Source: Prevotella sp. E9-3
GTDB taxonomy: Bacteria; Bacteroidota; Bacteroidia; Bacteroidales; Bacteroidaceae
Direction: 5' to 3'
NCBI RefSeq assembly: GCF_022024015.1
Contig: NZ_CP091786.1
Location: 1,674,001-1,738,000, forward strand
Length of the DNA: 64,000 nt
The notes beneath the pieces were generated by a model. It had not been told where the DNA came from and searched no databases. It saw nothing but the letters and a program-made list of their open reading frames with translations. This document shows positions 2,859 to 20,869 of the stretch, piece after piece. The translations under genes were made by a program, and so were the position numbers. Numbering within the stretch: position 1 is the first letter of the stretch; each line of letters opens with the position of its first letter.

Positions 2859-2909
2859 TCTGAATTTCAGGCAAGAATCCATAGATTACCTGCTGTTCTT
2901 ATAACCGAT

Positions 2910-3032
2910 TCATCCAACTCCAGCTTCTATCTCTCTCTGAGCATAGATCACAGCATCACGCTTTACCTCGTCCTCACCCTCAACGGTATCCAGCACCTTG
3001 TCCGCCAACCAAATAGTCAGCAGTTCTTTTTC
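2910..3032 (-). pseudogene. 3' remnant of an XRE-family regulator gene
   Basis: The last 41 codons or so of a helix-turn-helix regulator, beginning EKELLTIWLADKVLDT and ending at a TGA at 2910-2912. They match the C-terminus of the intact XRE gene at 9910-10203 almost residue for residue, with changes such as Asp to Glu and Lys to Arg. The DNA-binding part is gone. The bases downstream (2875-2912) also resemble the intergenic bases after the intact gene, including the CCATAG that there carries the start codon of the 410-aa gene. An ancestral copy of that neighbour therefore seems to have been deleted. Confidence 0.85.
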
Positions 3033-6543: not shown

Positions 6544-6911
6544 ATAAATTTGCCGTAAATTTGGTATTTTTGCAGGGAAAACCGTTTTACTTTTTCTCTT
6601 TATTAGTGATACGATAAATTTTAATTGTTACCATACACACCAACAGGACATCTACCGTTGCCTTGTTCCCTGACGATGGATCGGAAGTTGCGAAGTTCAG
6701 ATACGCCAAAGACAAAGCGTCATAGTAACGGTTCGTTATGCCTGTAAACAGCCTTTCACAAGGCTTGTAAAAACACTTTTTAGGCGAAAATTGGTAGAAA
6801 TGTCTCAAAAAACTAGGAAGTTAAAAGAAAAATGCCTAACTTTACAACGACAAATCCCGCCCGCTTCCCATAAGAACAGCGTACCCAGCGGGACATTTTT
6901 TGTATATAGAC
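6544..6911. other. Gene-poor stretch with a possible leader hairpin
   Basis: A 73-codon minus-strand open frame (6587-6808) is present, but I recognise no family and see no promoter, so it is not called as a gene. On the plus strand TCCCGC (6855-6860) can pair with GCGGGA (6888-6893), and six T residues follow just before the Abi_2 ATG at 6912. That looks like a terminator or attenuator in the leader of that gene. Confidence 0.4.
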
Positions 6912-7199
6912 ATGAGATATACCAAACAAGCAATGACGCTGGCACAGCAGATTCAGACACTGCAAGGCAGAGGTCTGATGATTGCTGATACCAATAAGGC
7001 AGAACAAGCTCTTGATGCTATCAGCTATTTCCGATTGGCAGACTACTGGTATCATCTGGAAGCTGATCATCATACTCATCAGTTCCTACCCGACAGTCAT
7101 TTTGATGAAGTGCTGGCTTGTTACTATTCAGAGTTCGAGCGGCCTTTCACGTCCCACATAGCCAGTGATATTCAAGTTGCATTTTCACTTCGTTCCTAA
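6912..7199 (+). pseudogene. Abi_2 (AbiD/AbiF-like) abortive-infection gene, 3' truncated
   Basis: About 95 codons. The start (MRYTKQAMTLAQQIQTLQGR, GLMI, KAEQALDAISYFRLADYW) is the typical N-terminus of Abi_2 family proteins, which are usually about 300 aa and linked to phage abortive infection. From about 7172 the frame enters repeat A and ends eight codons later at a stop inside the repeat. The rest of the gene is missing. The true start is ATG 6912, since the frame before it only offers TTG at 6900. It is presumably non-functional and marks the left edge of the accessory region. Confidence 0.8.
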
Positions 7200-7421
7200 A
7201 CTCCTCGGTTTTCCTTGCATTGCCCTTTATTTACGCGTTTTCTGCGTTAATCTTCCAAAATCCGTCTTTCGTTACATACTTTTTTCGTAACTCTGGCTGA
7301 CGCCGAAGTTCTTGGACGAGCCAAGCGAAATAAGTTTCGAGTCCTTCGTCTCGGAAATGAAAAGAAAAGCAAGCATTTCTTTTGCATTTCTCTCGACTTT
7401 TCGTAACTTTGCAATCCGAAA
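7172..7421 (+). repeat. Repeat A, copy 1 (250 bp, promoter-bearing)
   Basis: It aligns without gaps with 20601-20850; I count about a dozen mismatches by eye. The orientation is direct. It contains a small CTTGG...CCAAG hairpin and ends in a complete Bacteroidetes promoter, which sits right upstream of rpiB. The left end is abrupt and cuts the Abi_2 gene. Confidence 0.92.
7381..7411 (+). promoter_or_regulatory. rpiB promoter inside repeat A
   Basis: TTTG (7381-7384), 19 bases, TAACTTTG (7404-7411). The ATG of rpiB is 41 bases further on. Confidence 0.75.
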
Positions 7422-7451
7422 TAATTTATACTATTAATACACTATTATACT

Positions 7452-8215: not shown

Positions 8216-8363
8216 GATTTATTCAGTTGCGTTATAGCGGCTGTTTTCTATTGCAATAAGTGATGTTTTTCGTTGTTCCGCCGTTCTAGTTTGCGATTTT
8301 TGTTTGTCTTAATTTTCGAAAAGCAAACTGAAAAAATATGCATTTTTGGGGTGGGGCTTACCA

Positions 8364-8634
8364 CTCGATTTTTCGTAACTTTGTAAGAATTCTCGCCTTT
8401 TCTTTATATAAAGGCAGTCTGGGGGATTGAAAAAAAATGGGGTTACGATTTGGAGACCGTTCTTGCGTCCCGTTGGTAGCAAGCGACAAAGCCGAGCGCT
8501 CTATTCAATGTTCTGCTATAAATTGCCTAAAAGAGCACCCGACTCTGAGCCACCGCCTGTTTCGTGGCTCGTTGTCGGGTATAAAGGTATAACTTTATTT
8601 TGAAACAGCCAATAACTATTCACAAATAATAACG
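8364..8634. repeat. Repeat B, copy 2
   Basis: Second copy of the element at 2559-2858. It starts with a promoter-like TAACTTTG (8376-8383), shares the conserved core, and has lost about 30 bases corresponding to the right inverted arm of copy 1. It contains the best-preserved hairpin of the element (8537-8580). It ends 18 bases before the stop of the 410-aa gene, so the operon runs straight into it. Confidence 0.85.
8537..8580 (-). terminator. Probable terminator of the nine-gene operon
   Basis: Two 7-bp stems (8537-8543 with 8574-8580 and 8547-8553 with 8564-8570) stack around a symmetric 3x3 internal loop and a 10-base loop. Read on the minus strand it is followed by GCTCTTTT. It lies 73 bases beyond the stop of the 410-aa gene. 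In repeat B copy 1 the same hairpin is weakened by mismatches. Confidence 0.6.
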
Positions 8635-8652
8635 GGTACGTTTTCATTGGAT

Positions 8653-9885
8653 TTACTCCCAATTTACCAAGTCGCGTGGCAATGTTATTTTCTTAGCCTC
8701 CCCACGCTCACCTGTTACGAAATAGTTTTTAGCAAGTGACTCATCGAATTCTTTCACGAATGCTGAGCGGATGCGGGCACACTTCTCGTTAATCGAATTG
8801 AGCAATGGATTTGTCACGTCTTCTATACTCTGAATCGTCCTTTTGTTCAACTCCATTGGCTTCAGTTTTTTATAGATGTCCAACATCTCCTCTCTGTAGT
8901 CTGTCAATCCCTTGAACAAAATACCTTCTGGATGCTTCAAGAACAGCAAATATACTGCTTTCACAAGCGGTTCCATCTTTACCTCAATGTCATTGTAATC
9001 TGGCAATAGGATTCGATAGTCTTTAGTTATAATCAGCCTACTGAGTTGAGCCTTTGTCTTAAACAAGCCTCTGAACGTCCATTCGTTGATGCCCTTGTTT
9101 CTTAACTTCTGCACTCTTACGTCCATGTCCTCCAGCAGCGTCAGACTCACAAATTCGTGATCCTCGTTGAGTGCTAAAATGCAGGGTATATGGTCGTTCT
9201 CCTTGCATTCTGCTATCAGTCCATTGTATTCCGAGTACATCACGAATCGGCACTTTTTGTCATCAAAGCTATGAATCTCCACTAAAACATCATACGATAG
9301 CCCGTCACAGGAGAACGACAATTGGCAACACGAATTCCTTAATTCATATTGCGTAGCCCATATTATAGGTTTATCACCCAGTTCTGTCTTTACGAAATTC
9401 TCTATGGCTGCCACAGCGGCTGCTTGCTCATGCTGCGATGTCTGGTGTACGACTCCAAAAGGCGAAGAGCCACCGAACTGTTTCGACCACCAGTATCCAG
9501 AAGGTGTTACCTCAATTTCCTTGATAAGACCATCCTCTATTTTCAAGCGATGCATCATATCTTGATACTCGCCATCGACAGTAATAATAGCAACAGAGCG
9601 GTCGCCACTTCCATCAACGTCTGCCCTATAACTTCGCTTTGAGTATTGAAGAGAATCGAAAACTTGGCTCATCAGTTTTAGGAAATTGACCTTTCCGTTA
9701 ATGACTCTGTAAGGTACACCGCCTTTCCAAACCATATCCTCATCGAGATAGGGTTCAACGAAGCTCATATCCAGCCTGTTCCAACACAAACAGATTAGTT
9801 CTGCGGCCTGTCGGTATGAGGACAGCTTACCAGGATTCTTTTCCTGAGCAGCGTTTCTATTGATGATGTAATCGTAAAAATCCAT
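8653..9885 (-). CDS. Protein of unknown function with NTF2-like N-terminus
   Basis: 410 aa, last gene of the left-pointing operon, 24 bases after the XRE gene. The first 120 residues or so (AAELICLCWNRLDMSFVEPYL...) look like an NTF2/SnoaL-type fold, a cone that binds small ligands or partners. The middle is unrecognised. The C-terminal 110 residues are mainly helical and end in YFVTGERGEAKKITLPRDL, a tail I have a sense of having seen in other Bacteroidales hypothetical proteins, though I cannot name a family. No signal peptide or membrane segment. The degenerate locus at 2.9 kb appears to have lost its homologue, which suggests this gene and the XRE gene travel together. Confidence 0.75.
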   Translation of the reverse strand: MDFYDYIINRNAAQEKNPGKLSSYRQAAELICLCWNRLDMSFVEPYLDEDMVWKGGVPYRVINGKVNFLKLMSQVFDSLQYSKRSYRADVDGSGDRSVAIITVDGEYQDMMHRLKIEDGLIKEIEVTPSGYWWSKQFGGSSPFGVVHQTSQHEQAAAVAAIENFVKTELGDKPIIWATQYELRNSCCQLSFSCDGLSYDVLVEIHSFDDKKCRFVMYSEYNGLIAECKENDHIPCILALNEDHEFVSLTLLEDMDVRVQKLRNKGINEWTFRGLFKTKAQLSRLIITKDYRILLPDYNDIEVKMEPLVKAVYLLFLKHPEGILFKGLTDYREEMLDIYKKLKPMELNKRTIQSIEDVTNPLLNSINEKCARIRSAFVKEFDESLAKNYFVTGERGEAKKITLPRDLVNWE

Positions 9886-9909
9886 AGCCCACCACTATTT
9901 ATCACCAAA

Positions 9910-10203
9910 TCATTCCACTTCTGCCTCTATCTCTTTCTGAGCATAGATTACAGCGTCATGTTTTACCTCGTCTTCACCATCAACGGTATCCAGTACCTTG
10001 TCTGCCAACCAGATAGTCAGTAGTTCTTTCTCGTCGATTTCCAGTAATCTGGCCATAATAGGTATATGACTCCGTTTGGCCTTTCTTTCTCCACGCTCTA
10101 TCTTGCTATACATTGGCGTGTCTATATCCAGCGCAGCCGCAAGTTTCCGCTGCACCATCCCATGCTCTTCTCTGAGTTCTTTTATCTTCTTACCGAATAT
10201 CAT
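9910..10203 (-). CDS. XRE-family helix-turn-helix regulator
   Basis: A 97-aa protein with a Cro/CI-type HTH in residues 1-60 (GKKIKELREEHGMVQRKLAA...YSKIERGERKAKRSHI) and a 35-residue acidic/helical tail. It starts 10 bases after the AlbA_2-type gene ends and is surely co-transcribed with it. The likely role is autoregulation of this module or of the whole operon. A decayed near-copy of its tail lies at 2910-3032. Confidence 0.9.
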   Translation of the reverse strand: MIFGKKIKELREEHGMVQRKLAAALDIDTPMYSKIERGERKAKRSHIPIMARLLEIDEKELLTIWLADKVLDTVDGEDEVKHDAVIYAQKEIEAEVE

Positions 10204-10213
10204 ACGTTTCCTT

Positions 10214-11833
10214 TTAGTCTTTTCTAACTTTTCGATACTTCTGATTCTTACTTTTGGGTTTGTCGGGTTCAGTCATCTCTAAATATCCCATCTCCAACAA
10301 TGTTCTGACATACGTGGTCATATTCTTAGAATTGTTGTAGTAGCCTATGTGGTCCATGATTTCCTTTGCCGTTCTTGGAATAGCACAAAACTGGATGATG
10401 TCCTTTTGAACACTTGGCAACTGCTTATAAGGAGTGCGAACTACACGTGCTCTATCTTCGGTTTCTTCGGCTCCATCATTGTCTCTTTTTGTAGCTTTAT
10501 TATTTTCTATATACTTCGAAGACAGTGAGTTATCTCTGTCTTCTTTGTCTTTTTTATCTCTGTCTTCTCTGTCACTATATCTATCATTTTTAGCTTCGGT
10601 TTCTCCTACATTTCTACGCTCCACCGTCACCACGAACTCATTAAGGGTCTCGTCGTTCACGAACTTGATGTCTGGAGTAAATTTCAAGGCTCTGGTGATG
10701 CCGCTTCCTGCACCAGTGTATGGCAACAAGTTGATACCATGATTGAACAGCAACTTGTTCCTTGGCACAGATGCGCCATGCTTAATGCTTTCCATGCTAA
10801 CACCCTCTGGCAATAGTCCTGGACTGTGAATCTCAATTCTGTTGTCGAAGATGAACACCCGCAATGGTGCTTCTATCACATACGAGCGATGAAGGATGCC
10901 GTTCGTGACAATCTCAGACAGGCTGGCGGTTGAGACCTCCAACTCGCCCTGACTGTTAAAATCCTTTTCCACTTGTTTCCTGCGAAGATTCCTGGTCAGG
11001 AATGAAATGATATAGTTGTACAGGTGTACGGCATTGCCGTCAGCATCATTACCACTCTTATCTCGGAACTCGGTGCCTCCGATGCTGTTTCCTATAAAAC
11101 TGACACATCTCACGGTGAAGGCTGGCAACCAGCGTTGAGGGTAACTTCCCATCAGCATCAAGGCAGCCACTGTCAATGTGCCGTCCTCCATAACCAAACC
11201 ATTGTTCTTCAAGATCCCCTCTGGTGTCTGACTTAGGACATTGGCAATCTCTTCAAGGCTTCTATGCCTCAATTCCGTTATTGACAACTGCTGCCGCTCA
11301 AAATCACTACGGAACCTGTTGAGCAAATAGTCACGCAAGGTGTTCTCATCCAAATCCTTGATACTGGTGCCATTCACAGGCATGCTGTCAGGATGCATTT
11401 GTCCGTTCTCCATCAGCATGGCTATCAGTTCCGCGTTGTCAAAAACCTTGCGTTTGTCAGCCCCTTGCTTCACCCATACAATTCCCTTGCTGTCACGATA
11501 AGGTTTGTTCTTTCCTTGTTTGACGGTAGCCACCACAATGATACCGCCCTGCATCTGAACATTCTCGATGTCAAGCAAAATTTGTGGAACGACACCTTCC
11601 GATGCCAGACTCCCCAACAAGTTCGTCGTCTCTTGCACCTCAACAAACGAGAGCGGATTGATGCGCCCCGTCTTGTCATCAATACCCACTACAATCATTC
11701 CGCCACGAGAATTGCTCTGTGCCACCATCTCGCAACTCACGTCATACTTGTTATCGCGAGTTACACGCTCCTTGAACTGTACTCGTGTCTGTTCTGCCGT
11801 ATCCCTCAGCCTCAGTATGTCTTCTTTCGTCAT
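10214..11833 (-). CDS. AlbA_2 (Schlafen-like) / GHKL-type putative regulator
   Basis: 539 aa from ATG 11833; the frame extends to a GTG at 11878, but the sequence conserved in the family begins at MTKEDILRLRDTAEQTRVQFKE. Residues 1-130 or so form an AlbA_2 domain (FKER, GGMIVVGIDDKTG). Residues 280-420 hold the partial ATPase-like block seen in RecG-related regulators (EIVTNGILHRSY, IEIHSPGLLPEG, GAGSGI). Next is a highly charged linker rich in D, R, K and E, then a C-terminal winged-helix-like part (IIQFCAIPRTAKEIMDHIGYY). Such proteins are annotated as transcriptional regulators, and Schlafen-type members occur in defence. It is separated by 83 bases from the gene upstream. Confidence 0.85.
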   Translation of the reverse strand: MTKEDILRLRDTAEQTRVQFKERVTRDNKYDVSCEMVAQSNSRGGMIVVGIDDKTGRINPLSFVEVQETTNLLGSLASEGVVPQILLDIENVQMQGGIIVVATVKQGKNKPYRDSKGIVWVKQGADKRKVFDNAELIAMLMENGQMHPDSMPVNGTSIKDLDENTLRDYLLNRFRSDFERQQLSITELRHRSLEEIANVLSQTPEGILKNNGLVMEDGTLTVAALMLMGSYPQRWLPAFTVRCVSFIGNSIGGTEFRDKSGNDADGNAVHLYNYIISFLTRNLRRKQVEKDFNSQGELEVSTASLSEIVTNGILHRSYVIEAPLRVFIFDNRIEIHSPGLLPEGVSMESIKHGASVPRNKLLFNHGINLLPYTGAGSGITRALKFTPDIKFVNDETLNEFVVTVERRNVGETEAKNDRYSDREDRDKKDKEDRDNSLSSKYIENNKATKRDNDGAEETEDRARVVRTPYKQLPSVQKDIIQFCAIPRTAKEIMDHIGYYNNSKNMTTYVRTLLEMGYLEMTEPDKPKSKNQKYRKVRKD

Positions 11834-11916
11834 ATCTTGTATTCCTTTATTTCTGGTAACGTTTCTGATCTTTGTCACATTACGTTTTCAACTGTCCTAC
11901 TTTTCCTTTTTTAGGG

Positions 11917-12399
11917 TTAATCTTTAAAAATCTTGTAAGAGTAAGGATTAGACAATTGTTGTAAATTCAAGTCCGTGATCCACCAACCATTCTCCTGAAA
12001 CTCCTTGTTGAAATATTCTTGAAACGCTTTTCTTGCCATGACAAACGAATAAGCGTCGGTAACATGAGGTCTGCAATTTGCTTCTGTATAATGATGAACG
12101 TATTTTTCACCTATTGCTGCATATTCCCTCAAATTAAGGCAGTCACGCAAAGCATCTAATTGAAAAATAGTCATACTGCCAGGAATAGATGGAACAAAGT
12201 ACTCACCTTCCCCTATTTTGATAGTATCACACTCCTTCTTCACGTTGCGAAACTTATCGTCGTCCAAGTCAGAAACAACCCTTATTGCCCATAAGTATGC
12301 TGCTACTGAAATAGCATCTATTTCATCCTCAACGCCAATGCAGCCATACATCTCGTCAACAGAAAAGAGTTCTAATTGCTTGTTCGCCATATTAATCAT
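11917..12399 (-). CDS. Unrecognised 160-aa protein
   Basis: A soluble acidic protein. The start ATG 12399 overlaps the stop of the DUF1848 gene (ATGA), so translation is coupled; an alternative ATG at 12390 would remove three residues. No motif is recognised. The early segment VEDEIDAISVAAYLWAIRVV and the later YSFVMARKAFQEYFNKEF look helical. It sits between the DUF1848 and AlbA_2-type genes. Its tight coupling to the former suggests the two products work together. Confidence 0.7.
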   Translation of the reverse strand: MINMANKQLELFSVDEMYGCIGVEDEIDAISVAAYLWAIRVVSDLDDDKFRNVKKECDTIKIGEGEYFVPSIPGSMTIFQLDALRDCLNLREYAAIGEKYVHHYTEANCRPHVTDAYSFVMARKAFQEYFNKEFQENGWWITDLNLQQLSNPYSYKIFKD

Positions 12400-13448
12400 C
12401 CTATTATACTCTCACTTTCATCATTGTGCTTATCTTTATTCTTCAGCACCAGCTCTTTGCTAGTGTTGGCATAGCAATACACACAGAAGTGACGGCAAGT
12501 ATTATACATACCAATGTCCTTACTAACCATGCACCCACAAACTTTCCGCTGACCTGTGTCTTTGACGTTCTTCGTTTTGTTGGGAATAGGTGGAATCTCG
12601 CCAAACATATCCTTTTCAGGCCACTTCAAAGTATGCAGGTAGTAGACCAACTCTTTGTCATCTGCAAAGATACGCTTCATCAACTCACCGTCGATGCAAC
12701 GATTATGCTCAATCCCATATGCTTCCAAATCTATGTCTTCTGCACATGTCGCCATCTCAACATCCCAGCCCTCTTTATGCCATGCTTCGCGAATCTTCTT
12801 TAGGCCTTCAACTATTTCAATTCGTTGGGCATAATTGGCTTCAGCGTTTTCGACATTTTCTTTTGTAAAGAGCATTGTCTCCTTTACGAGGTTATTCTGA
12901 ACTTTACGATATACCTTTACATCCACAAAGCTAAACACTAACTTGTCAGTATATCCCTTCAGTTTGTCACCAACATTCCATATTCTTGTCAACAACTCTC
13001 TCGGTCCTATGTTTGGTGTAATAATGACTGGATCAAATCGCCATATCACCTTTTCCTTGCCAATATAATTCGACAAAGTTTTAAATGTTTCCACACGTTT
13101 TTCAACAGAAGGAACATTCGGTTCTAATCCTTCTTGCTCATAGTCATTAAGTGTCACCTGAAAGTAATAATGTATTCCTCTCTTGTCTAGTTCTGGCAGA
13201 TAAGGAATGATTGGAGCAGGATTCTTTGTCCAGAACACAATAACCTTGCAATTCTTGAACGATACATACATTGGCTGCTGGTTGAAGGGATTGTACCATA
13301 CACAATAGCCTTTAGCCAAGCGGTTGAAAAACCACTTGGCATAAAAGGCTGGTATGTCTGTAGAGCGGCTGGCAGATATGATGACTGGTGCAGTTGCTTC
13401 TACCTTTTCGCCTTTGTCTGTTGTTATGTTATGCTTATCAGATACCAT
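12396..13448 (-). CDS. DUF1848 protein, radical-SAM-like cysteine cluster
   Basis: A 350-aa DUF1848 family protein. The N-terminus (PVIISASRSTDIPAFYA, GYCVWYNPFN, VFWTKNPAPI) and the WRFDPVI motif are typical. Near residues 316-328 it has TCRHFCVYCYA, a CxxxCxxC cluster reminiscent of spore-photoproduct-lyase and radical SAM proteins, with extra cysteines just before it (KVCGCM). A [4Fe-4S] cluster and SAM chemistry on nucleic acid are plausible but unproven. It overlaps the 3' end of the 807-aa gene by 11 bases and the next gene by 4, deep inside the operon. Confidence 0.87.
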   Translation of the reverse strand: MVSDKHNITTDKGEKVEATAPVIISASRSTDIPAFYAKWFFNRLAKGYCVWYNPFNQQPMYVSFKNCKVIVFWTKNPAPIIPYLPELDKRGIHYYFQVTLNDYEQEGLEPNVPSVEKRVETFKTLSNYIGKEKVIWRFDPVIITPNIGPRELLTRIWNVGDKLKGYTDKLVFSFVDVKVYRKVQNNLVKETMLFTKENVENAEANYAQRIEIVEGLKKIREAWHKEGWDVEMATCAEDIDLEAYGIEHNRCIDGELMKRIFADDKELVYYLHTLKWPEKDMFGEIPPIPNKTKNVKDTGQRKVCGCMVSKDIGMYNTCRHFCVYCYANTSKELVLKNKDKHNDESESIIG

Positions 13449-15861
13449 AGAAACTCAAAAGTTCTTTTTCTATTTGTTCCGCTAATTGTGTTGTAAAAAC
13501 GTTATATAATGAGGTTCTCTTTGGTGAATCGCCTCTACCTTCTTTCTTGCAAAGATTTATAAAGAATCTAATATGTTCACGTCTGTCATCTTTATAGTTC
13601 ATCCCTGTAAATTTCCAGTTCTGCTCAAGTCGTCTGAATACCTCTGGCAACAATTGGATCAAAGATGGTAGCTCGGGTAATGTTTCATTTGACATAGAAT
13701 TAACAGACTGTCCTTTGAATGAAGCCTTTGGTTGATGGCTTTGACTATCAAATAGTGACTTTTCTTTGGGCGTTGTTTCTATATGATTCGTTTTCAACAT
13801 CTTAACAATGTTTCTATATGTAGATGAAGATTTATCCAATATGTTATCTAAAATAAATAAAAAGGCATCGGCATCTTGTCTTTTTGCTTCAAGCTCTATC
13901 ACTTTATTAATTTTCTCAATTGTTTCCTGTCTTTGAGCCCTGGCTTTGGGTAGTGATGATTCAATTATGGAATAAATACGTTCTCTAAATTCATCTTCAG
14001 AATACTTGGTATTATCATCTTCGAAATTGGCTGCCTTTAATGCTTTATACACTTTAGTTCCTTTTCCTAAAACATTATCTGCTATGCACATAAAAGCCTT
14101 GGGACTTTGCACAGCATCCTCTAGTTCCAGTGCTTGACTCACGGCACTAATAACCTGAGTTTGTTTCGATGGCTTTGTCTCTATCTTGCTAATATTTCCC
14201 ATAATGGTTGACCCAATATTGCTTTCACGAATCTCGAAAGAATTGGCTTGTGTTGGAAATTCCGCATTTAAGATACTAACGCCAAACAACTGTTGATAAG
14301 CATTCAGAACAAAACTCTTATAATAGTCTCTATCTCCGTTTATTAGCGTAGAAGTAAACGTTTTGGGCAAAGAAGCAAAACCACGTGTTGCGCCATACAA
14401 GCCGAATGCCAGACGGTAGTTGTTAAATCCGCATTGTACGAGATATTCAGACAGTCGATCTATATTGTCACCCTTTTGGCAGAACGCCGCAAAGGAGTTT
14501 AATACATCATTGTCTATTGAATACAAGTCAAAAGCGGAACTCTCCTGCAGATGGCTTAACAGGGCATTAATATAATTAGCCCATTTGGAGTCATTCCATT
14601 TATCTCCTAATATCCGTTGGAGGATTTTACCTCCATTGTAGGCAATTGCCAAGGGTTCGTCAATCCCATTCTCGTTCTTTACAGCTTCATACTCATTGCC
14701 TATTTGAGAATTGAGCAAACTGTCATAGAATTCGGGTTTAACCGTTTTGTCGAGCACATTCACGCTGCCATCATGGCTAATTCGGACGAGTTCTTTGACT
14801 TCATTCTTCTGGCCTTCGGATATGCTCCTAAGTTCTATCTTCCTTACAACAGAATTCAAGCTGTCTATGGCAGTATTATATGATTCAGGAGAATAAAACT
14901 CCACACACCTCCACAAGTCGTTGGCATCGTATACTCTTCTCAAATGCAGTTTTGAGCAGAATTCCGTATAGATATCAAGTGATTCCAACAAAGCAATAAC
15001 GTCTTGTTTCTCCAATTTCAAGGGGTTTCTACTAAGCCGCATATCTATGATATTGGCATTATAGAGGGCATCTTCATCAATGGAAGAATAAATGCGGTTA
15101 AAATCTTTGATGTCTTTTGTTAGGGATTCATCTTGCAAATCAGAAGGTGTATGCGTTGGTGAATTTACGATAGCAGAAAGTGTATTACGCATCCTTCTAG
15201 CCAGCGACTTCAATTCTGCCACATCCGAACTAACGGTCATGTTGGCCCCAATCAAATAGCAATAGACAAATCCTCTAATACGGTCTATCTTCCTGTCTTG
15301 TTCTATATTTGATATGTTAGCGTCTATCTCTGTTGGCAAATAAGAAGAATCCCATTCGAACTCATCACTGTCATTCTTTGTAAAGAGGTCTTTGACATTG
15401 TCAAAGAAACCTCTCTTCGTCTGAGGTTTGACAACAAGGTTTGCACTATAAAGTTTCTCGAACTTGTTTTCTATACTTTGAGCAGCCTTGGTTAATACGC
15501 CTTGCCGTTCCACATAACTATCGAAGTAAATCTTGGTATGAAAAGGATTCAGATATATCGTGGAAGCAGAAACATATACTTCAACTCCAGAATTGGTGCC
15601 TTGTTTCGTGATAATTCCGGAAGGATAATCATCACTATCAATTTCAATAACCATCGGATAATTCTCAATTTCTGAATCCTCCACATCATACCGAGGATAT
15701 TTGGAATAGAGAAGAACCACATCGTCGAGGCTGTTGGCTTCGACAGAATAAAACCTCTTGTTGCCGAATCCTCTTCTTTGGTAGAATACCTTAGGAGAAA
15801 TAGATTCAGTAGAGAATATATTGTTGAAATTCAACGTGCATGTTGGAATATATAACTTCAT
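13438..15861 (-). CDS. Unrecognised 807-aa protein of the candidate defence operon
   Basis: A large soluble protein with no family I can name. The N-terminus is distinctive: LNFNNIFSTESISP then FYQRRGFG within the first 35 residues. This is followed by a beta-rich stretch to about residue 130 and a long helical remainder with repeated SIDxxLY-like segments. No Walker, nuclease or methyltransferase motif is evident, and there are no membrane segments. It starts 12 bases after the helicase gene and overlaps the DUF1848 gene. Size and position suggest the scaffold, sensor or effector of the system, with the helicase as its partner. Base composition is A+T-rich like the rest of the operon. Confidence 0.75.
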   Translation of the reverse strand: MKLYIPTCTLNFNNIFSTESISPKVFYQRRGFGNKRFYSVEANSLDDVVLLYSKYPRYDVEDSEIENYPMVIEIDSDDYPSGIITKQGTNSGVEVYVSASTIYLNPFHTKIYFDSYVERQGVLTKAAQSIENKFEKLYSANLVVKPQTKRGFFDNVKDLFTKNDSDEFEWDSSYLPTEIDANISNIEQDRKIDRIRGFVYCYLIGANMTVSSDVAELKSLARRMRNTLSAIVNSPTHTPSDLQDESLTKDIKDFNRIYSSIDEDALYNANIIDMRLSRNPLKLEKQDVIALLESLDIYTEFCSKLHLRRVYDANDLWRCVEFYSPESYNTAIDSLNSVVRKIELRSISEGQKNEVKELVRISHDGSVNVLDKTVKPEFYDSLLNSQIGNEYEAVKNENGIDEPLAIAYNGGKILQRILGDKWNDSKWANYINALLSHLQESSAFDLYSIDNDVLNSFAAFCQKGDNIDRLSEYLVQCGFNNYRLAFGLYGATRGFASLPKTFTSTLINGDRDYYKSFVLNAYQQLFGVSILNAEFPTQANSFEIRESNIGSTIMGNISKIETKPSKQTQVISAVSQALELEDAVQSPKAFMCIADNVLGKGTKVYKALKAANFEDDNTKYSEDEFRERIYSIIESSLPKARAQRQETIEKINKVIELEAKRQDADAFLFILDNILDKSSSTYRNIVKMLKTNHIETTPKEKSLFDSQSHQPKASFKGQSVNSMSNETLPELPSLIQLLPEVFRRLEQNWKFTGMNYKDDRREHIRFFINLCKKEGRGDSPKRTSLYNVFTTQLAEQIEKELLSFYGI

Positions 15862-15873
15862 GATGCTAAAAAA

Positions 15874-16905
15874 TTAGAGTTTAAGTTTAGGACCGGCTAC
15901 AACAAGAGAGGTGTCGTACAAATCTCTTGGTACATCATCGAATAAACTTGAAAGATTGCCAGAGTGCAATATATATAAAGATTGGTATGTACGTGTAACT
16001 GCAACATAAAGCGGATTTCTGTTGTCGTCATCTTCAACTGTACAATCAGGTAAAAAAACATTTTCAAATTGAAGACCTTTAGAACTATGATAAGTCATCA
16101 ATTTGGGATTGTCCGATGTAAAATCCAAATCCATATGTTTTCCAAATTTAGCTTCTACATTTAGACCATGTTCTTGAAAGTAGTTGTACGCCTCTTCAAC
16201 TTCATCATTTTGCCTAAAAAGAATACCGACATCTTCCATGTGTTTGTTCTGAATCAATTCTATAATAGCGTCGTATTGTTTTTCGACAGTTGGATATTCA
16301 AGGATTTTAGGCTTTTCCGTGCCTTCTACTGTACAACGTTCTTCTAGTTCATCATTTTCAGAATTAATGTACTGGGCAACGCGTGCTATCTTTTTGGGAA
16401 GGCGATGATTAAAGACCAACTGCTCAACTGGGAATTTTGTGAAATACTGTATGTCTTCCATTGATACAGTTTTCTTATCTTGGATAAATGTATATAACTG
16501 TTGAGCAGAGTCGCCATATAGCAATAATGCTTTTCTTGCTTTCGACTTAAATAACTCAATATCCTCTTTCGAAAAGTCCTGCGCTTCATCAACAATAATA
16601 TAGTCTGCGCTAGGGCATCCTGCACGATTTACCCAATGCCAATGATAATCTACATTACGTTGTGAAATCCCCACCTCTTTAATTCCGTCAGCCATATATT
16701 GCATTAGAGCTTTGGTAAATACAATATACATATATGATCCACGATGCTCATCTTGGATTTGTTTCGCTTTCCACAAAGCCAAAATGGATTTTCCACTCCC
16801 AGCACAGCCCTTAACAATATAAGAGTTGTCTGTTTTCTTATTGATTACCTTAACTTGATAGTCGTCAAGTTCTGAGTCTTTTACATAAAAACTTCTTTTT
16901 GCCAT
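15874..16905 (-). CDS. Short UvrD-like superfamily 1 helicase/ATPase
   Basis: 343 aa. Walker A is GCAGSGKS (residues 33-40), Walker B DEAQD (106-110), then YGDSAQQLYTF (motif III), FNHRLPKKIA (motif IV), YHSSKGLQFENVFL (motif V) and YVAVTRTYQSLYI (motif VI). All helicase motifs are present in about half the length of UvrD, so the accessory 1B/2B insertions are missing. It is likely a DNA translocase or helicase working with the NERD-methyltransferase protein, whose gene ends 12 bases upstream. In other systems (Gabija GajB, NERD-UvrD fusions) such helicases pair with nucleases. Confidence 0.9.
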   Translation of the reverse strand: MAKRSFYVKDSELDDYQVKVINKKTDNSYIVKGCAGSGKSILALWKAKQIQDEHRGSYMYIVFTKALMQYMADGIKEVGISQRNVDYHWHWVNRAGCPSADYIIVDEAQDFSKEDIELFKSKARKALLLYGDSAQQLYTFIQDKKTVSMEDIQYFTKFPVEQLVFNHRLPKKIARVAQYINSENDELEERCTVEGTEKPKILEYPTVEKQYDAIIELIQNKHMEDVGILFRQNDEVEEAYNYFQEHGLNVEAKFGKHMDLDFTSDNPKLMTYHSSKGLQFENVFLPDCTVEDDDNRNPLYVAVTRTYQSLYILHSGNLSSLFDDVPRDLYDTSLVVAGPKLKL

Positions 16906-16917
16906 AGAATTGTAGTT

Positions 16918-19029
16918 TTATGTTATTATGTTATATGAATCAATTACTTTGGTTCCTTCATATGATTTCGGGCATAATGATGATTCTTCATTTTGCTTAT
17001 ATTTCTGAGGATGAATTATATGAGAATAACCTTTTAATAATGTATTGTCTGGAATAAAAATGTCTTTAGTATCCTTCTTACAAATAATACGATAACAAAC
17101 TCTGCTCTCATCACCACTTTTTCTTGAGTGACTAACATTAAATGTTTGTTGCATAAAACATGCTTCCCTGCAATCGCGCCAATTGTTGCATGCTAATGGA
17201 AGAAGTGTTGCATAGTCTTTATGACACGATACGAATCTATTAAGACCTTGGGTCATGAGTTGCGGATAGAAAAGGTTTGAATGTTCATCTTTCGTCGTAA
17301 CATCTAACATATAAATGAGGCCGTCTTCAGCTAAAAGTTTAGATAAGCTTTCGACTATTTTATAATAGCAATTTCCTTCAATGATTCTTCTTGATATAAG
17401 TTCGCATGCCATCTTGCTATTCAAGATAAAATGGCATTCAGGTACATTTGAAATTTGCAAATCATTTTTGTTTTGAATCGTTCTCTCTACACATGAAAGT
17501 GATATATTATGACGCACATTAGATGATGAAAGCTCAACTAATTCTTTCAAAGTAGTCAGTGCTTTACGATTACCATCTATTGCTATAATATTTGTTGTTT
17601 TATAATCTGTCAAATGTTTTGAGAGGGCGACCACTAACCCAATTAACTCTCCGCCTGTACCACATCCAAAGTCAAGGATGTTAATTTCTGGTTGTTGTTT
17701 CAAGACTTCCAGATATTGACGAGATTTGAACAAATCATCAAAAATACAAAAAGATTCTGCATAGCTCCGAGGAAAGTATGTTCCTAAATAAACTTTAATA
17801 TCTTCAGAGTCCGTGTCTAAATTATATTCAAATTTTTTGTATTCTGGAGAATAGATGGCTCCGAGATTATTAAATAAAGCAAGATCAAGCCAGTGCGGAA
17901 TAATTGTTTTAGATTTATGGAACTTAACGGAACCATTATCTGTGGCTGAATGATCCATTTTATCATAAACGATTTTAGACCGTTCGGTATTCTTTTGTAA
18001 CTCATCTATCGTATCACCATCTTGCCAACAAATAACATCAGGGTTTATTGCTTTTACTTCATGATTAATAAATTTGCTGAGTTTTGAGCAATGAGTTCCT
18101 ATCCCAGTTGACTCAACCTTAACCAAATACTTATTATGTATAGTAATGCCATATTTTGCAAGTTTCGACTGTAAAGAAATGCCTTCCCACACTGTAACAA
18201 CAGCATCAGAGAGTTTTAAGACAGAAGATAGTATCTGTTTTACAAAACCTTTAAGGGCGGCGCTCTCTTCAGTTTGTATTTCTTGTTCATTGACTACATC
18301 TCCTTCTTGAAGATCTATATGCTCTTGTTTGTCATCTTGCGATATTTCTTTTTGTTTGATGGAATTGTGAGAATGTCCTTCGTATATTTTTATATCTTCA
18401 AAAACAGATAGTTGTTCTGGAGATGTTGTTGGTTTATCATAATTGGCATTGCTGAACTCAGCCAGATAGAAAGAGTTGAGGTTTAACAATTCGGCAAGAT
18501 TCACAATACCCAAAGGATCAAAATCTGTATGGGGACAAGTAATATCGTCCAGTTTCTCTATAAAATGTTCGTTGTCAGTTATATGAAGCCAAGATTTTGT
18601 AGTGGCACAAAGCAGGTTTTCCAGCTTAATGGGCTGATTAAATATCACCAAAGTCGGTACATCTTTTATGTTCTTGCTATTCACTCCTAAAGCTTTGAGT
18701 TCTTTTTTGACAATTGAGTGATTTATTCTTGCTTGTTGCAATACTGTCTTTCGTGAACCACCTTTTATGATTTGTCCGTCGCATTTCCATTCACCATTTT
18801 CTGTGGCAACAATAGTTCCACCATAGTTTTTGAATTCGATAGCAATAATAGCGTCCTTCTTTATAAACAAAGCATCTAATTCACATCCTATGTTATAGTT
18901 ACCAGCAAACACACAGAAATCATTCGAATTCTCATAGTGAGCCTTTAGCTTCTCACAAAGAAAACGGAACTGTTCTCTTTCTGCAGTATTGTCGAAATTG
19001 CCGACTCTAAATGCTAATAATCCTCCCAT
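16918..19029 (-). CDS. NERD nuclease-like domain fused to a class I methyltransferase
   Basis: 703 aa. Residues 10-130 form a NERD domain, a PD-(D/E)xK relative, with active-site residues visible: ELDAL (Asp52) and IEFKNYGG (Glu65, Lys67). The middle (200-400) is charged and unrecognised. Around residues 448-520 a Rossmann SAM-binding motif appears, DFGCGTGGE followed by IIAIDGN, continuing as a methyltransferase-like fold to the end. Substrate unknown; DNA, RNA or tRNA are all possible. It is second in the operon, after a 58-base gap holding a palindrome. Combining a nuclease and a methyltransferase in one chain beside a helicase recalls restriction-type defence. Confidence 0.85.
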   Translation of the reverse strand: MGGLLAFRVGNFDNTAEREQFRFLCEKLKAHYENSNDFCVFAGNYNIGCELDALFIKKDAIIAIEFKNYGGTIVATENGEWKCDGQIIKGGSRKTVLQQARINHSIVKKELKALGVNSKNIKDVPTLVIFNQPIKLENLLCATTKSWLHITDNEHFIEKLDDITCPHTDFDPLGIVNLAELLNLNSFYLAEFSNANYDKPTTSPEQLSVFEDIKIYEGHSHNSIKQKEISQDDKQEHIDLQEGDVVNEQEIQTEESAALKGFVKQILSSVLKLSDAVVTVWEGISLQSKLAKYGITIHNKYLVKVESTGIGTHCSKLSKFINHEVKAINPDVICWQDGDTIDELQKNTERSKIVYDKMDHSATDNGSVKFHKSKTIIPHWLDLALFNNLGAIYSPEYKKFEYNLDTDSEDIKVYLGTYFPRSYAESFCIFDDLFKSRQYLEVLKQQPEINILDFGCGTGGELIGLVVALSKHLTDYKTTNIIAIDGNRKALTTLKELVELSSSNVRHNISLSCVERTIQNKNDLQISNVPECHFILNSKMACELISRRIIEGNCYYKIVESLSKLLAEDGLIYMLDVTTKDEHSNLFYPQLMTQGLNRFVSCHKDYATLLPLACNNWRDCREACFMQQTFNVSHSRKSGDESRVCYRIICKKDTKDIFIPDNTLLKGYSHIIHPQKYKQNEESSLCPKSYEGTKVIDSYNIIT

Positions 19030-19064
19030 ATAAGACCTTTTTCAATATTATTTGGTCGTTCTAT

Positions 19065-19085
19065 TATTTGTATTGTATACAAATA
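19065..19085. promoter_or_regulatory. 21-base palindrome in the operon
   Basis: Perfect 9-bp arms (19065-19073 and 19077-19085) around three bases, ending three bases from the stop codon of the 201-aa gene and 36 bases before the NERD gene. It may be an operator for the XRE or AlbA_2-type regulator, or a processing hairpin. There is no T tract, so a terminator is unlikely. Confidence 0.5.
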
Positions 19086-19087
19086 CT

Positions 19088-19693
19088 CTATCCCTTATTT
19101 TCTACTATATCACGGATCTCTTTCAATAGATTTCTAAATTGATCCCGTTCCTGCATTAAAAGATGATTAGAAAAAGTAAAATTCTCTATTTCTTTCTCCA
19201 ATTTCAATATTTTCTCATCTTTACTGAAGAGATCTACAATAAGATTAATTTCTTTTTCTGATTTTACATTCTTAATCCTATTATACAATTCCCAAATTTG
19301 AGGGAGATGCAAATCCCAAGGGGCATCACACCAATACAAGTGAGAGCCATTATAATCTAAGCTCATTACTTGGTTTGCAAAGCTACCCCATGCATTAATA
19401 TCTAGCGAATAGCCATTGTCTAAATTACTACCACATACGCATCCTTCTGTATTGATATACTCGACAAAATACCATGAGTACCAATTAGAAATGGCAATCT
19501 GACTTCTGTGATGAATTAAAATACACTGTTCGGCGTTACGCAATATATGTGGTGTTGTCGAACAACGTACTTCATTATTGTCAAAAATAGCGGCATACAG
19601 AGTCCCTTCATATCGTTCTCCAGAACCCGTATGAGTCTCTTTGTATCTGTTTACACAGAATGTTGAAAGTTCTACAAAATCTATTTTGTCCAT
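19088..19693 (-). CDS. Unrecognised 201-aa protein, first gene of the operon
   Basis: A soluble protein, no family recognised. The N-terminal 150 residues are rich in aromatic residues and cysteine (SNWYSWYFVEYINTEGCVCG, LYWCDAPWDLHLP). The last 50 residues are a likely coiled coil (DEKILKLEKEIENF...MQERDQFRNLLKEI), which suggests oligomerisation. Being first behind the only promoter seen for this operon, it may be a regulator or recognition subunit. Confidence 0.72.
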   Translation of the reverse strand: MDKIDFVELSTFCVNRYKETHTGSGERYEGTLYAAIFDNNEVRCSTTPHILRNAEQCILIHHRSQIAISNWYSWYFVEYINTEGCVCGSNLDNGYSLDINAWGSFANQVMSLDYNGSHLYWCDAPWDLHLPQIWELYNRIKNVKSEKEINLIVDLFSKDEKILKLEKEIENFTFSNHLLMQERDQFRNLLKEIRDIVENKG

Positions 19694-19742
19694 ATGTTAC
19701 AGTTTTTAGATGTCTCTTTTCTGATTTGCCAAATTCTGACCA

Positions 19743-19750
19743 CAAAGATA
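19743..19750 (-). promoter_or_regulatory. -7 box for the nine-gene operon
   Basis: CAAAGATA on the plus strand, TATCTTTG on the minus strand, 50 bases before the ATG at 19693. A good -33 element at 19-20 bases is not visible. Confidence 0.5.
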
Positions 19751-19822
19751 CGAATTATTTCCCAATGATATGCATAAAAATCTGAAAAAGTTATCATCGC
19801 AAGCCTTGTGAAAGTCTTTTTA

Positions 19823-19854
19823 TTTGGATAAATCGAGGTAATTGCCTACTTTTG
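19823..19854 (+). promoter_or_regulatory. Promoter of the 134-aa gene
   Basis: TTTG (19823-19826), 20 bases, TACTTTTG (19847-19854); the ATG is at 19874. Confidence 0.7.
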
Positions 19855-19873
19855 CAAAAAATAATAGAAATCT

Positions 19874-20278
19874 ATGGCTACACATGAACAAATTGAAGCA
19901 CTGAAGATTGACGAGAACGTCTTCGAATTGGCTGAGGACACAGAGCTGGAGTATTTGGTTCATTTTGCAGCTCCATTTACGGGAGCGGACAAATGTGTTA
20001 TCCCAAAGGGAACTGCTTTTGCGCCACATTCGCCCATGCGAGGTGATGCCTTATATATGCATTTTGTTGATGGAGATAGAGATGCGTTGTTCGCAAGGAT
20101 GGAGGCCCATGTGAAAGACAAGTATGAAGATCTTTTCACCCGACTGCAAGGTTTCTCCTTCTTTATTACCGAAGAACAACTCAAAACACTACCACTCAAA
20201 TTTCGCACAGGTAGTGCTGAACGACTTTTGGAAATAATGTGCCAGTTACGCTCCCCTGTTTATCCTATTTTTCCATAG
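19874..20278 (+). CDS. Hypothetical 134-aa cytosolic protein
   Basis: An acidic, soluble protein without signal peptide or recognised motif. It contains KCVIPKGTAFAPHSPMRGDALYM, a beta-rich segment, then a helical second half. It has its own promoter and is followed by a strong terminator, so it is an independent single gene. Codon use looks like the core genes rather than the A+T-rich operon on its left. Confidence 0.8.
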   Translation: MATHEQIEALKIDENVFELAEDTELEYLVHFAAPFTGADKCVIPKGTAFAPHSPMRGDALYMHFVDGDRDALFARMEAHVKDKYEDLFTRLQGFSFFITEEQLKTLPLKFRTGSAERLLEIMCQLRSPVYPIFP

Positions 20279-20324
20279 AGGTAAATCGTCTGACTTTCTA
20301 GCAGAACTTCAGATGCAATTAATA

Positions 20325-20354
20325 GGGAGCCTGTCATCAATTGAACAGGCTCCC
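20325..20354 (+). terminator. Terminator after the 134-aa gene
   Basis: A perfect 10-bp G+C-rich stem (20325-20334 with 20345-20354) and a 10-base loop, 46 bases past the stop. The tail is T-rich but broken. It also cuts off the integrase remnant that runs towards it from the right. Confidence 0.7.
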
Positions 20355-20361
20355 ATTATCA

Positions 20362-20600: not shown

Positions 20601-20850
20601 TCAAGTTGCATTTTCACTTCGTTCCTAAACCCCTCGGTTTTCCTCGCATTGCCCTTTATTTACGCGTTTTCTGCGTTAATCTTCCAAAATCCGTCTTTCG
20701 TTACAGACTTTTTTTGTAACTTTGGTTGACGCCGAAGTTCTTGGACGAGCCAAGCGAAATAAGTTTCGAGTCCTGCCTCTCGGAAATGAAAAGAAAAGCA
20801 AGCATTTCTTTTGCATTTCACTCGACTTTTCGTAACTTTGCAGGCCGAAA
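20601..20850 (+). repeat. Repeat A, copy 2
   Basis: A direct-oriented, gap-free near-copy of 7172-7421. It ends 19 bases before the ATG of the MscS gene and supplies its promoter. Together the two copies bracket about 13.2 kb of unique sequence that includes rpiB and the whole candidate defence operon. Confidence 0.92.
20810..20840 (+). promoter_or_regulatory. mscS promoter inside repeat A
   Basis: TTTG (20810-20813), 19 bases, TAACTTTG (20833-20840), identical in layout to the rpiB promoter in copy 1. Confidence 0.75.
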
Positions 20851-20869
20851 GAAATATTAACCAATTAAC

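Follow-up and report, generated by a model that had tools for sequence, protein, structure and literature searches.

Gabija combines the UvrD-like helicase GajB with the nuclease GajA (OLD-family ATPase/TOPRIM type), and the operon analyzed here, in a 64,000-nucleotide stretch of the Prevotella sp. E9-3 genome (the window), shares this helicase-plus-nuclease logic through its GajB/UvrD-like gene g3. The likeness is unspecific and lies at the SF1 level, all 33 scanned family helicases matching GajB models; on the other hand, no GajA-type match was found among the nine operon proteins (PADLOC, Pfam), and the helicase here has 343 aa and is partnered by an 807-aa protein (g4), a methyltransferase, and a DUF1848 protein. 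BREX type I is related by placement, since helicase and g4 lie inside such operons in three relatives and the cassette follows BrxL with further BREX genes in two, and by content, since the accessory NERD, PIN, HEPN, and Schlafen nucleases in the consulted sections of a BREX survey (PMC12839542) are kinds present here. In contrast, PADLOC detected no PglZ, BrxC, PglX, or BrxL among the nine proteins, the NERD part matches PglW weakly, and the survey's main text holds 0 mentions of UvrD, radical SAM, DUF1848, or SF-I helicase. The PADLOC accessory models RTasDUF1848 and RTasNERD-Hel of DRT systems match the DUF1848 protein (3e-42) and the helicase (1.8e-9), but no reverse transcriptase was found among the nine proteins (Pfam, PADLOC). 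The PADLOC candidates C3a187 (NERD plus UvrD) and PDC-M16A each cover one domain, in the helicase (5.4e-19) and the NERD part (8.5e-32), respectively, whereas g4 has no PADLOC match. The YprA helicase systems ARMADA, Dpd, and DISARM were compared as well. ARMADA II, according to the consulted part of its description (PMC12458937), has helicases, including a GajB-like one, and a methyltransferase, and in L068, a locus with a g4 relative, a DpdF-like gene of 1738 aa is found close by; PADLOC detected no DpdF-like or PglX-like match among the nine proteins. The original prediction that no catalogued system has such a composition holds both for PADLOC, with which the nine proteins were scanned, and for the literature searched, where no paper describing the four-gene cassette was found.

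The nine open reading frames (g1 to g9; 201, 703, 343, 807, 350, 160, 554, 97, and 410 aa) run from position 19693 down to 8653 of the window, all on the minus strand, and were rightly predicted to be co-directional and mostly overlapping or tightly spaced: six of eight junctions overlap or measure less than 25 nt, the others being g1-g2 (58 nt) and g6-g7 (38 nt). Pfam also confirmed the predicted domains, namely NERD plus a class I methyltransferase fold, UvrD/SF1, DUF1848, SLFN_AlbA_2, and HTH_3. The proposed single promoter and single terminator did not stand, since sigma-70-type sites show no excess (33 versus 35.9, sd 5.6, in shuffled sequence) and the minus strand yielded no terminator-like site between position 8300 and the g9 end. 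One Bacteroidetes-type -7 box, TATCTTTG, starts 57 nt upstream of g1. The claimed A+T-richness relative to the neighbors applies to the core (G+C 33 to 40% at 13 to 20 kb and 40% at 12 to 13 kb) but not to the tail, which is flank-like (43 to 46% at 9 to 12 kb); G+C is 38% in the 8- to 9-kb bin, which holds the operon end. The predicted Abi_2 remnant is present as a fragment at 6900 to 7199. A 253-bp direct repeat bounds the island, with 95% identical left (7172 to 7424) and right (20601 to 20853) copies on the plus strand, and a genome-wide search found no further full-length copy. Divergent from the operon, a 134-aa ORF without a Pfam match (19874 to 20278, plus strand) accompanies the cassette in the loci L028, L079, and L056; the surrounding DNA is common with L056 at 84% over 19717 to 20360 and with L028 and L079 up to 20277.

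The nine-gene unit proposed originally gave way to a smaller one, for in 59 distinct loci with a g4 relative it is four genes that travel together. The conserved unit is methyltransferase (with or without NERD)-helicase-g4-DUF1848, represented in the window by g2 (16918 to 19029), g3 (15874 to 16905), g4 (13438 to 15861), and g5 (12396 to 13448), all on the minus strand. All four occur together, with order and spacing kept, in 40 of 59 loci. The small SF1 helicase adjoins g4 in 57 of 59 and lies within six genes of it in 58, the methyltransferase is within six genes of g4 in 45 (one of these being a 94-aa piece), and DUF1848 is likewise within that distance in 46. Methyltransferase and helicase meet at between -31 and +34 nt in 38 of 39 junctions. 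The minimal pair is the helicase with g4, which occur without methyltransferase or DUF1848 in L011, L025, L026, and L032. Pairwise identities correlate between g4 and helicase (r 0.81), g4 and methyltransferase (0.73), and helicase and methyltransferase (0.50), with 0 of 999 permutations as high when cassette genes only are compared and host kinship is ignored; DUF1848 tracks the other core genes weakly (r 0.03 to 0.28, host kinship likewise ignored). Homologues of g4 are patchily distributed, being found in 4 of the 60 genomes that form the relatives set and in 7 of 295 genomes (own genome included); species genomes hold 51 homologous loci. The cassette taxa are mostly Bacteroidota, with single records labeled Chlorobiota, Thermodesulfobacteriota, and Pseudomonadota.

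The genes g1 and g6 to g9, again on the minus strand, are optional cargo outside the conserved unit. Neither g1 (19088 to 19693; 2 of 59 loci) nor g6 (11917 to 12399; homologues in 0 of 59 loci among called genes) has a Pfam family. The 554-aa g7 (10214 to 11878) combines Schlafen-type SLFN_AlbA_2 (5.6e-18), HATPase_c_4, and a C-terminal Fic-like_C domain and has a counterpart no more than six genes away from g4 in 10 of the 59 loci, the XRE-type regulator g8 (HTH_3; 9910 to 10203) recurs in 6 of 59, and g9 (8653 to 9885), with a sub-threshold Pfam match to SnoaL_2 (0.0029) and a C-terminal part (residues about 249 to 410) that recurs elsewhere, is found in 4 of 59. Of the 60 genomes in the relatives set (own genome included), 39 contain homologues of g7 and 17 contain homologues of g9, versus 4 for g4. 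Tails are exchanged between loci: L079, with a 95% identical core, has a different tail, as does L028 (core 75 to 88%), and the L079 core adjoins the mobilizable-element genes integrase, relaxase, and NikA-like.

In g2, NERD (residues about 25 to 130; Pfam 1.2e-8), with the nuclease motif ELD...EFK, precedes a class I SAM methyltransferase domain (about 370 to 655) that CheR, MTS, and Methyltransf Pfam models match, each below cut-off. The family methyltransferases carry or adjoin exchangeable nucleases, with NERD (4 of 44 methyltransferases), PIN, and probably HEPN (one protein, score below the Pfam cut-off) fused and a CoiA-type nuclease as a separate gene; no nuclease partner was identified for most short methyltransferases. 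DNA base-flipping methyltransferases have the catalytic motif [DNS]PP[YFW] or PC[QN]. Both are absent from all 44 aligned family methyltransferases, so a simple R-M reading fails. An Rsm22/METTL17-like identity, suggested by eye, gained no support, as PF09243 had no match in g2 (E ≤ 1) or in the own genome (E ≤ 1e-3), and Rsm22 was absent from the other family methyltransferases among the 25 of 53 families listed. The helicase g3 (Pfam UvrD_C 9.9e-13; PADLOC GajB 1.5e-18) carries S37-G38-K39 and D106-E107-x-Q109-D110, both without variation across 33 of 33 aligned sequences, a selection of the helicases found, and its family profile matches HelD (1.1e-29) and GajB chains (3.9e-15) in the PDB. 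Profiles of the methyltransferase, g4, and DUF1848 yielded nothing credible in sequence searches of the PDB.

An N-terminal alpha/beta domain (residues about 1 to 175) and a helical remainder make up g4, which has no family at a trustworthy score in Pfam, PADLOC, or NCBIfam (sub-threshold Pfam matches only). Its AlphaFold model is good (pLDDT 83.1) and gave no credible Foldseek match in the PDB (best E 0.11); an earlier model built from 11 sequences had a pLDDT of 57, and its Foldseek search yielded nothing usable. Several candidates were not credited: ADP-ribosylglycohydrolase or MntA-HepT-like folds (Foldseek probability 0.33 to 0.41, E 0.37 to 1.8, TM ≤ 0.34), an engineered scaffold with the top probability of 0.51 (E 1.4; best 50 of 245 rows), the viral structure library (best E 0.02, probability 0.14; best 50 of 215 rows), and RexA (PF15969; 2 of 52 proteins, best E 0.0041). 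A DarT-like N-terminus, an idea formed by eye, was rejected at hhalign Prob 0.1 against nine DarT sequences; a remoter ART fold is possible there. Of the 52 g4 proteins, 4 have a topoisomerase-type zinc ribbon (Zn_ribbon_Top1; best E 2.6e-12). Searches with g4 found no match among plasmids, one phage record that, judged by eye, has an otherwise chromosomal-looking gene content, and one viral-contig record bearing integrase, relaxase, and NikA-like genes, which points to a mobilizable element and not to an established phage.

The 350-aa g5 (Pfam DUF1848, 3.2e-93) resembles radical SAM enzymes of the spore-photoproduct-lyase (SPL) type, judging from profile comparison. The C-terminal CX3CX2C cluster motif (C318/C322/C325) is invariant in 41 of 41 aligned sequences, and the cluster region aligns with PA0069-type radical SAM proteins (hhalign Prob 95.8, E 7e-9); the N-terminal part alone scored E 0.041, Prob 1.3. 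When the halves were swapped as a check for a permuted barrel, the alignment lengthened to 185 columns with the same score (62.7 both ways). The PA0069 model itself scores 6e-4 with the DUF1848 protein, which falls far short of the model's cut-off, and had no match in the own genome at 1e-3. No paper on this family was found in the literature searched. DUF1848 also occurs in other operons, which, together with its weak correlation, suggests that a mechanistic link with g4 may be lacking.

The predicted defence role is well supported by the placement of homologous genes in or beside operons of BREX or type I R-M, the exchangeable nuclease domains, and the mobilizable-element genes beside the L079 core. 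In L077, PADLOC places helicase and g4 amid BrxA, BrxB, BrxC, PglX, PglZ, and BrxL; judging from their similarity to L077, L072 and L075 share this layout, with PADLOC also identifying the PglZ of L075, and in all three the pair sits between PglX and PglZ. In L060 and L071, PglX, PglZ, and BrxL lie directly upstream of the cassette (PADLOC), and in L059 the cassette is followed by type I HsdM, HsdS, and HsdR (also detected by PADLOC on the same contig). Five of the 59 relatives thus have BREX genes around the homologous genes. BrxL alone precedes those of L038, counted apart because two further upstream genes had no PADLOC match at 1e-30. On the helicase tree, the BREX and R-M links need four changes, at least three of them forced by well supported branches. 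In 53 of 59 loci neither a BREX nor a type I R-M link was confirmed, within flanks of ≤12 kb, often far shorter, and with nine query proteins.

The four-gene set very probably represents a hitherto undescribed component of bacterial immunity, since it recurs in many bacteria, sometimes within known antiviral operons. Positions 12396 to 19029 probably constitute a mobile four-gene anti-phage module of a NERD-fused methyltransferase, an SF1 helicase, g4, and a radical-SAM-like DUF1848 protein, which may operate as follows: (i) a complex of helicase and g4 would load on or unwind invading or aberrant DNA; (ii) this engagement would free the methyltransferase-tethered nuclease, which could then degrade phage nucleic acid or shut the cell down; (iii) the methyltransferase and DUF1848, both expected SAM users, would set or erase a modification, on nucleic acid or protein, that spares self from the nuclease; and (iv) where the pair alone sits in BREX, the host BREX machinery may take over self-protection. 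The genes g6 to g9 would be optional accessory cargo, comprising a candidate AlbA_2 Schlafen-type RNase and regulators. A bolder version, which we regard as doubtful, makes helicase and g4 a portable recognition unit with a new fold that serves unrelated executors (methyltransferase-fused NERD, PIN, or HEPN, a CoiA-type nuclease encoded separately, BREX when the unit sits within its operon, or type I R-M). Where the unit stands on its own, the methyltransferase, along with a radical SAM enzyme of permuted, photoproduct-lyase-like build, would make or erase a novel nucleic-acid mark distinguishing self from invader.

The pair might also be the whole defence system, with the methyltransferase-nuclease and DUF1848 as separate island modules often alongside. 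This is unlikely: the four loci with the bare pair, the absence of methyltransferase and DUF1848 from the BREX-embedded L072, L075, and L077, and the poor correlation of DUF1848 and its use by other operons fit it, but the joint occurrence of all four genes, the g4-methyltransferase correlation, the tight methyltransferase-helicase junctions, and a related helicase in L179 with a fused methyltransferase-like N-terminus (judged by eye) tell against it. An auxiliary repair or maintenance role, in which helicase, g4, and a photoproduct-lyase-like enzyme would mend or restart restriction- or phage-damaged DNA and shield the host from its own BREX or R-M instead of attacking phage, has in its favor the UvrD/HelD-like helicase, the SPL-like radical SAM cluster, and the restriction systems adjoining some loci; we consider it improbable, given that NERD, PIN, HEPN, and CoiA nucleases and the Schlafen tail are effector-type, that no restriction system is visible in the tested flanks of most loci, and that the distribution is patchy. 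Ordinary island cargo, meaning unrelated genes assembled by mobile-element traffic with no joint function, is the likely reading for g1 and g6 to g9, the tail being swapped between strains and having homologues elsewhere without g4; as an account of the whole operon it is very unlikely, because core order and spacing are conserved and three core genes diverge in correlation.

If the anti-phage reading is right, the cassette would be a recurrent immunity system whose central protein, g4, is not covered by a family model in any of the three scanned libraries. The consulted part of the BREX survey (PMC12839542) names residual BREX activity without PglZ as unexplained, and helicase and g4, being found inside BREX operons, would offer that system a concrete candidate for an accessory partner that can be put to the test. 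Should the cassette defend its hosts, it would also give DUF1848 a function.

Nine ORFs (g1 to g9), called by a simple longest-ORF rule, run on the - strand from position 19693 to 8653, and the tight junctions of the original prediction were borne out for the most part, six of eight overlapping or being shorter than 25 nt. They encode a 201-aa protein without a Pfam, PADLOC, or NCBIfam family (g1), a 703-aa protein with NERD and methyltransferase domains (g2), a 343-aa SF1 helicase (g3), an 807-aa protein with only subthreshold Pfam and NCBIfam matches (g4), a 350-aa DUF1848 protein (g5), a 160-aa protein without a family in the same three libraries (g6), a 554-aa protein with SLFN AlbA_2, HATPase_c_4, and Fic-like_C domains (g7), a 97-aa HTH_3 protein (g8), and a 410-aa protein with only subthreshold Pfam and NCBIfam matches (g9). 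The A+T richness claimed for the whole operon relative to its neighbors applies to 13 to 20 kb, where G+C by kilobase is 33 to 40%, but not to 9 to 12 kb, which at 43 to 46% matches the flanks; this contrast is an early indication of two separate origins for the nine genes.

Comparison with other loci replaced the proposed nine-gene unit with a four-gene core (g2 to g5, 12396 to 19029). Within the relatives set, 4 of 60 genomes have a g4 homologue, and within the order 7 of 295 do, own genome included in both, and a scan of species genomes gave 51 loci. Together with six further genome loci, one phage collection record, and one viral contig, these made up 59 distinct loci after four duplicates, recognized as the same contigs by their length and position, were dropped, with the window excluded from the count and its near relatives L079 and L028 included. 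Neighbors within six genes of g4 were scored by gene calls and iterated profile searches; the NERD profile was left out of the counts because its iterated version drifted to the methyltransferase. The helicase lies within this range in 58/59 loci and directly upstream in 57; the sole match in L073 is a larger protein six genes away, and the profile search found none in range in L068. The methyltransferase is near g4 in 45/59 loci (a 94-aa piece in L024), DUF1848 in 46/59 (fragmented in L024 and L076), and all four genes in 40/59; where g4 has 3 kb or more on either side (40 loci), the four are present in 30. By comparison, g7 is near g4 in 10/59 loci, g8 in 6, g9 in 4, and g1 in 2, and no g6 homologue was seen near g4 among the called genes of the 59. 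DUF1848 is downstream of g4 in 35 loci, and five (L038, L059, L060, L063, and L071) have the order methyltransferase-DUF1848-helicase-g4. The helicase-g4 junction ranges from -83 to +32 nt across the 57 neighboring pairs; of the 39 methyltransferase-helicase junctions, 38 fall between -31 and +34 nt and one is 128 nt. Both the unit and its gene order are direct observations. Since many loci are metagenome bin contigs, single records labeled Alphaproteobacteria, Geobacter, or Chlorobiota may be assigned to the wrong phylum; the title of the Desulfovibrio sp. ZJ369 record has no MAG label. Several g4 copies are cut short where their contigs end. The host is judged Prevotella-like from the closest relatives that carry a name (L028 and L053) and from relatives of the genome.

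Correlated divergence was observed within the core, using pairwise identities among core proteins only and 999 permutations. With host kinship left in, g4 correlates with the helicase at r = 0.81 (32 loci) and with the methyltransferase at r = 0.73 (39 loci), and the latter two with each other at r = 0.50 (24 loci), 0/999 permutations being as high in each case; the corresponding values for DUF1848, likewise with kinship left in, are 0.24 with g4 (36 loci, 11/999 as high), 0.28 with the methyltransferase (37 loci, 11/999), and 0.03 with the helicase (21 loci, 378/999). DUF1848 seems to have been exchanged. It occurs in 12/60 genomes (own included), nine of which had shown no g4, and the DUF1848 loci from seven of those nine contain no g4 profile match (L178 ends at a contig end). 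Its neighbor in L173 is an N6/N4 DNA methylase (Pfam), and in L174, L176, and L177 it precedes very large genes of 1560 to 1800 aa, one of which, in L177, is a NERD and AAA_11/AAA_12 helicase fusion (Pfam); these three loci are possibly a second undescribed DUF1848 system. L179 (3973 to 8541) combines DUF1848 with a gene that by eye resembles DUF1016 and with a 780-aa protein; the C-terminal half of the latter is an SF1 helicase related to g3, and its N terminus, by eye, resembles a methyltransferase. L068 (2835 to 12889) shows another mode of g4 use: it carries DUF1848, a gene for a 1738-aa DpdF-like helicase, a 267-aa gene, and a g4 of 966 aa that matches Sel1/TPR weakly.

The remaining genes behave differently. 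L079, from a viral collection, matches the window at 95% identity over 12398 to 20277, and beyond that only in a piece of 109 nt and in g8. In L028, identity is 88% over 14009 to 20277 and 75% for DUF1848, and of the tail only g8 matches. In the tail position, both have a RhuM gene and a gene of 430 aa instead. L056 matches the tail (8499 to 11864) at 83% and, of the core, only DUF1848 (74%) and a 107-nt piece. Because the tail is swapped between these loci, and because g7 and g9 have homologues in 39 and 17 of the 60 genomes (own included) versus 4 for g4, g6 to g9 are cargo. According to the BREX survey PMC12839542, a Schlafen RNase that also has a minimal histidine kinase and a wHTH lies next to BREX and related systems in no fewer than 1017 taxa; as g7 resembles that protein, it is a plausible accessory effector.

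Several further features concern mobility. In L079 (12277 to 17527 and 18811 to 19962), the alternative tail includes the 430-aa gene, which has no Pfam family, the RhuM gene, and an HTH gene. Genes for a relaxase, a NikA-like protein, and a tyrosine integrase adjoin it, and for this reason the IMG/VR record appears to be a mobilizable element and not a virus. A 253-bp direct repeat (7172 to 7424 and 20601 to 20853; 95% identity, 13.4 kb apart) encloses the island together with an ORF that by eye resembles rpiB; these are the only full-length copies found in the genome, each stopping shortly before a + strand ORF, and they could be a trace of the island's arrival or a possible exit route. Further repeats pair 2559 to 2784 with 8364 to 8589 (87%) and 2899 to 3032 with 9899 to 10032 (85%), and DNA near 2.5 to 3.0 kb resembles the end of g8 and the region downstream of g9, perhaps the remains of a second tail copy. 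The same genome has two more copies of the C-terminal part of g9 (G000:C1, 2364361 to 2371711), no more than about 7 kb from a gene of the DarT family, and this part recurs in other relatives in open frames of varying length.

A constant core with an exchangeable effector is a usual sign of a conflict system. Among 44 aligned methyltransferases (264 to 703 aa), we observed NERD in four (Pfam; by length of the N-terminal part, those of the window, L028, L029, and L030), a C-terminal PIN_4 in two (Pfam; L034 and L065), and a HEPN_Swt1 match under the Pfam cutoff in one (L047, 1.7e-4), and L010 and L043 have a separate gene of ~1000 aa with DUF6035 and CoiA nuclease domains just upstream; for most short methyltransferases, no nuclease partner was identified. 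This exchange of nucleases on a constant core suggests a conflict system here as well.

Placement within or beside known defense operons was also observed. In L077, where PADLOC identifies BrxA, BrxB, BrxC, PglX, PglZ, and BrxL, helicase and g4 sit between PglX and PglZ; searches with proteins from L077 place BrxC, PglX, PglZ, and BrxL around the pair in L072 and L075, with a few additional small ORFs interspersed compared with L077. Between PglX and the embedded helicase, L072 (7869 to 8411) and L075 (8403 to 8900) have small ORFs that by eye are rich in cysteine and resemble zinc ribbons; these may be a freestanding equivalent of the zinc ribbon in some g4 proteins. The complete cassette comes after PglX, PglZ, and BrxL in L060 and L071 (PADLOC), with gaps to BrxL of 71 and 72 nt. 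It also follows a BrxL gene in L038 (2.9e-112), a locus excluded from the BREX count because the two genes before BrxL have no PADLOC match at 1e-30. In L059, type I HsdM, HsdS, and HsdR follow g4 (PADLOC identification on L022, the same contig). With nine query proteins and flanks of at most 12 kb, often far shorter, 5/59 loci are linked to BREX and 1/59 to type I R-M, the other 53 having no confirmed link to either within those limits. On a quick 58-row helicase tree with SH-aLRT support only, where rows scored unlinked include contigs too short for judgement, the three BREX-embedded copies group in a single clade with a support of 100. The linked state requires four changes, at least three forced by well supported branches (five changes, three forced, with L038 as linked). 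One seven-row clade holds L060, L071, L059, and L038 with L036, L062, and L063, the last three on contigs of 3.5 to 6.8 kb.

Conserved motifs were found in the core proteins. Walker A S37-G38-K39 and D106-E107-x-Q109-D110 are invariant in all 33 aligned helicases, a selection from those found, and the nearest solved relatives are HelD, UvrD, PcrA, Rep, and GajB of the Gabija system. The methyltransferases have an invariant GTYFPRS and a conserved SAM motif; since [DNS]PP[YFW] and PC[QN] are both absent in 44/44, the enzyme is, judged by its motifs, other than a usual DNA base methylase. The DUF1848 motif CX3CX2C is invariant in 41/41 aligned proteins; the family's Pfam note speaks of a misplaced cysteine cluster. 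Against 20 PA0069-type radical SAM proteins, DUF1848 matches strongly at the cluster (Prob 95.8, E 7e-9) and weakly at the barrel (E 0.041), and swapping its halves lengthens the alignment with the score unchanged; three other family profiles as controls gave Prob 0.2 to 0.5. These features would fit a possible circular permutation relative to spore-photoproduct-lyase-like enzymes. The PA0069 model scores the DUF1848 protein at 6e-4, well under its own cutoff, and has no match in the own genome at 1e-3. The AlphaFold model of g4 (52 sequences; pLDDT 83.1, pTM 0.68) has an alpha/beta N-terminal domain, which holds most invariant or near-invariant residues (e.g., N11, E19-P23, Y27, R30, and G33), and a long helical part; Foldseek gave no credible match, the best among the matches listed being E 0.11 (probability 0.09) in the PDB and E 0.02 (probability 0.14) for viral proteins. 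Zn_ribbon_Top1 is present in 4/52 g4 proteins (by motif, L036, L059, L060, and L063), all of them in the clade linked to BREX and R-M; this suggests that their task involves DNA. PMC full text, with partial coverage of preprints and with subscription journals outside it, yielded no paper on DUF1848 and none treating photoproduct lyase together with conflict systems, so that the cassette may be described elsewhere. Related papers are PMC12458937 and the BREX survey PMC12839542; UvrD, radical SAM, DUF1848, Rsm22, and SF-I helicase have no occurrence in the main text of the latter.

We tentatively propose that (i) helicase and g4 would recognize or process invading DNA, (ii) their engagement would license the attached or neighboring nuclease, (iii) methyltransferase and DUF1848 would supply a mark or remove one, and (iv) this marking may be dispensable where BREX brings its own. 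As a whole this mechanism is doubtful; a defense module working along such lines, minus the last biochemical details, is rather probable, and a defense role for the cassette is very likely.
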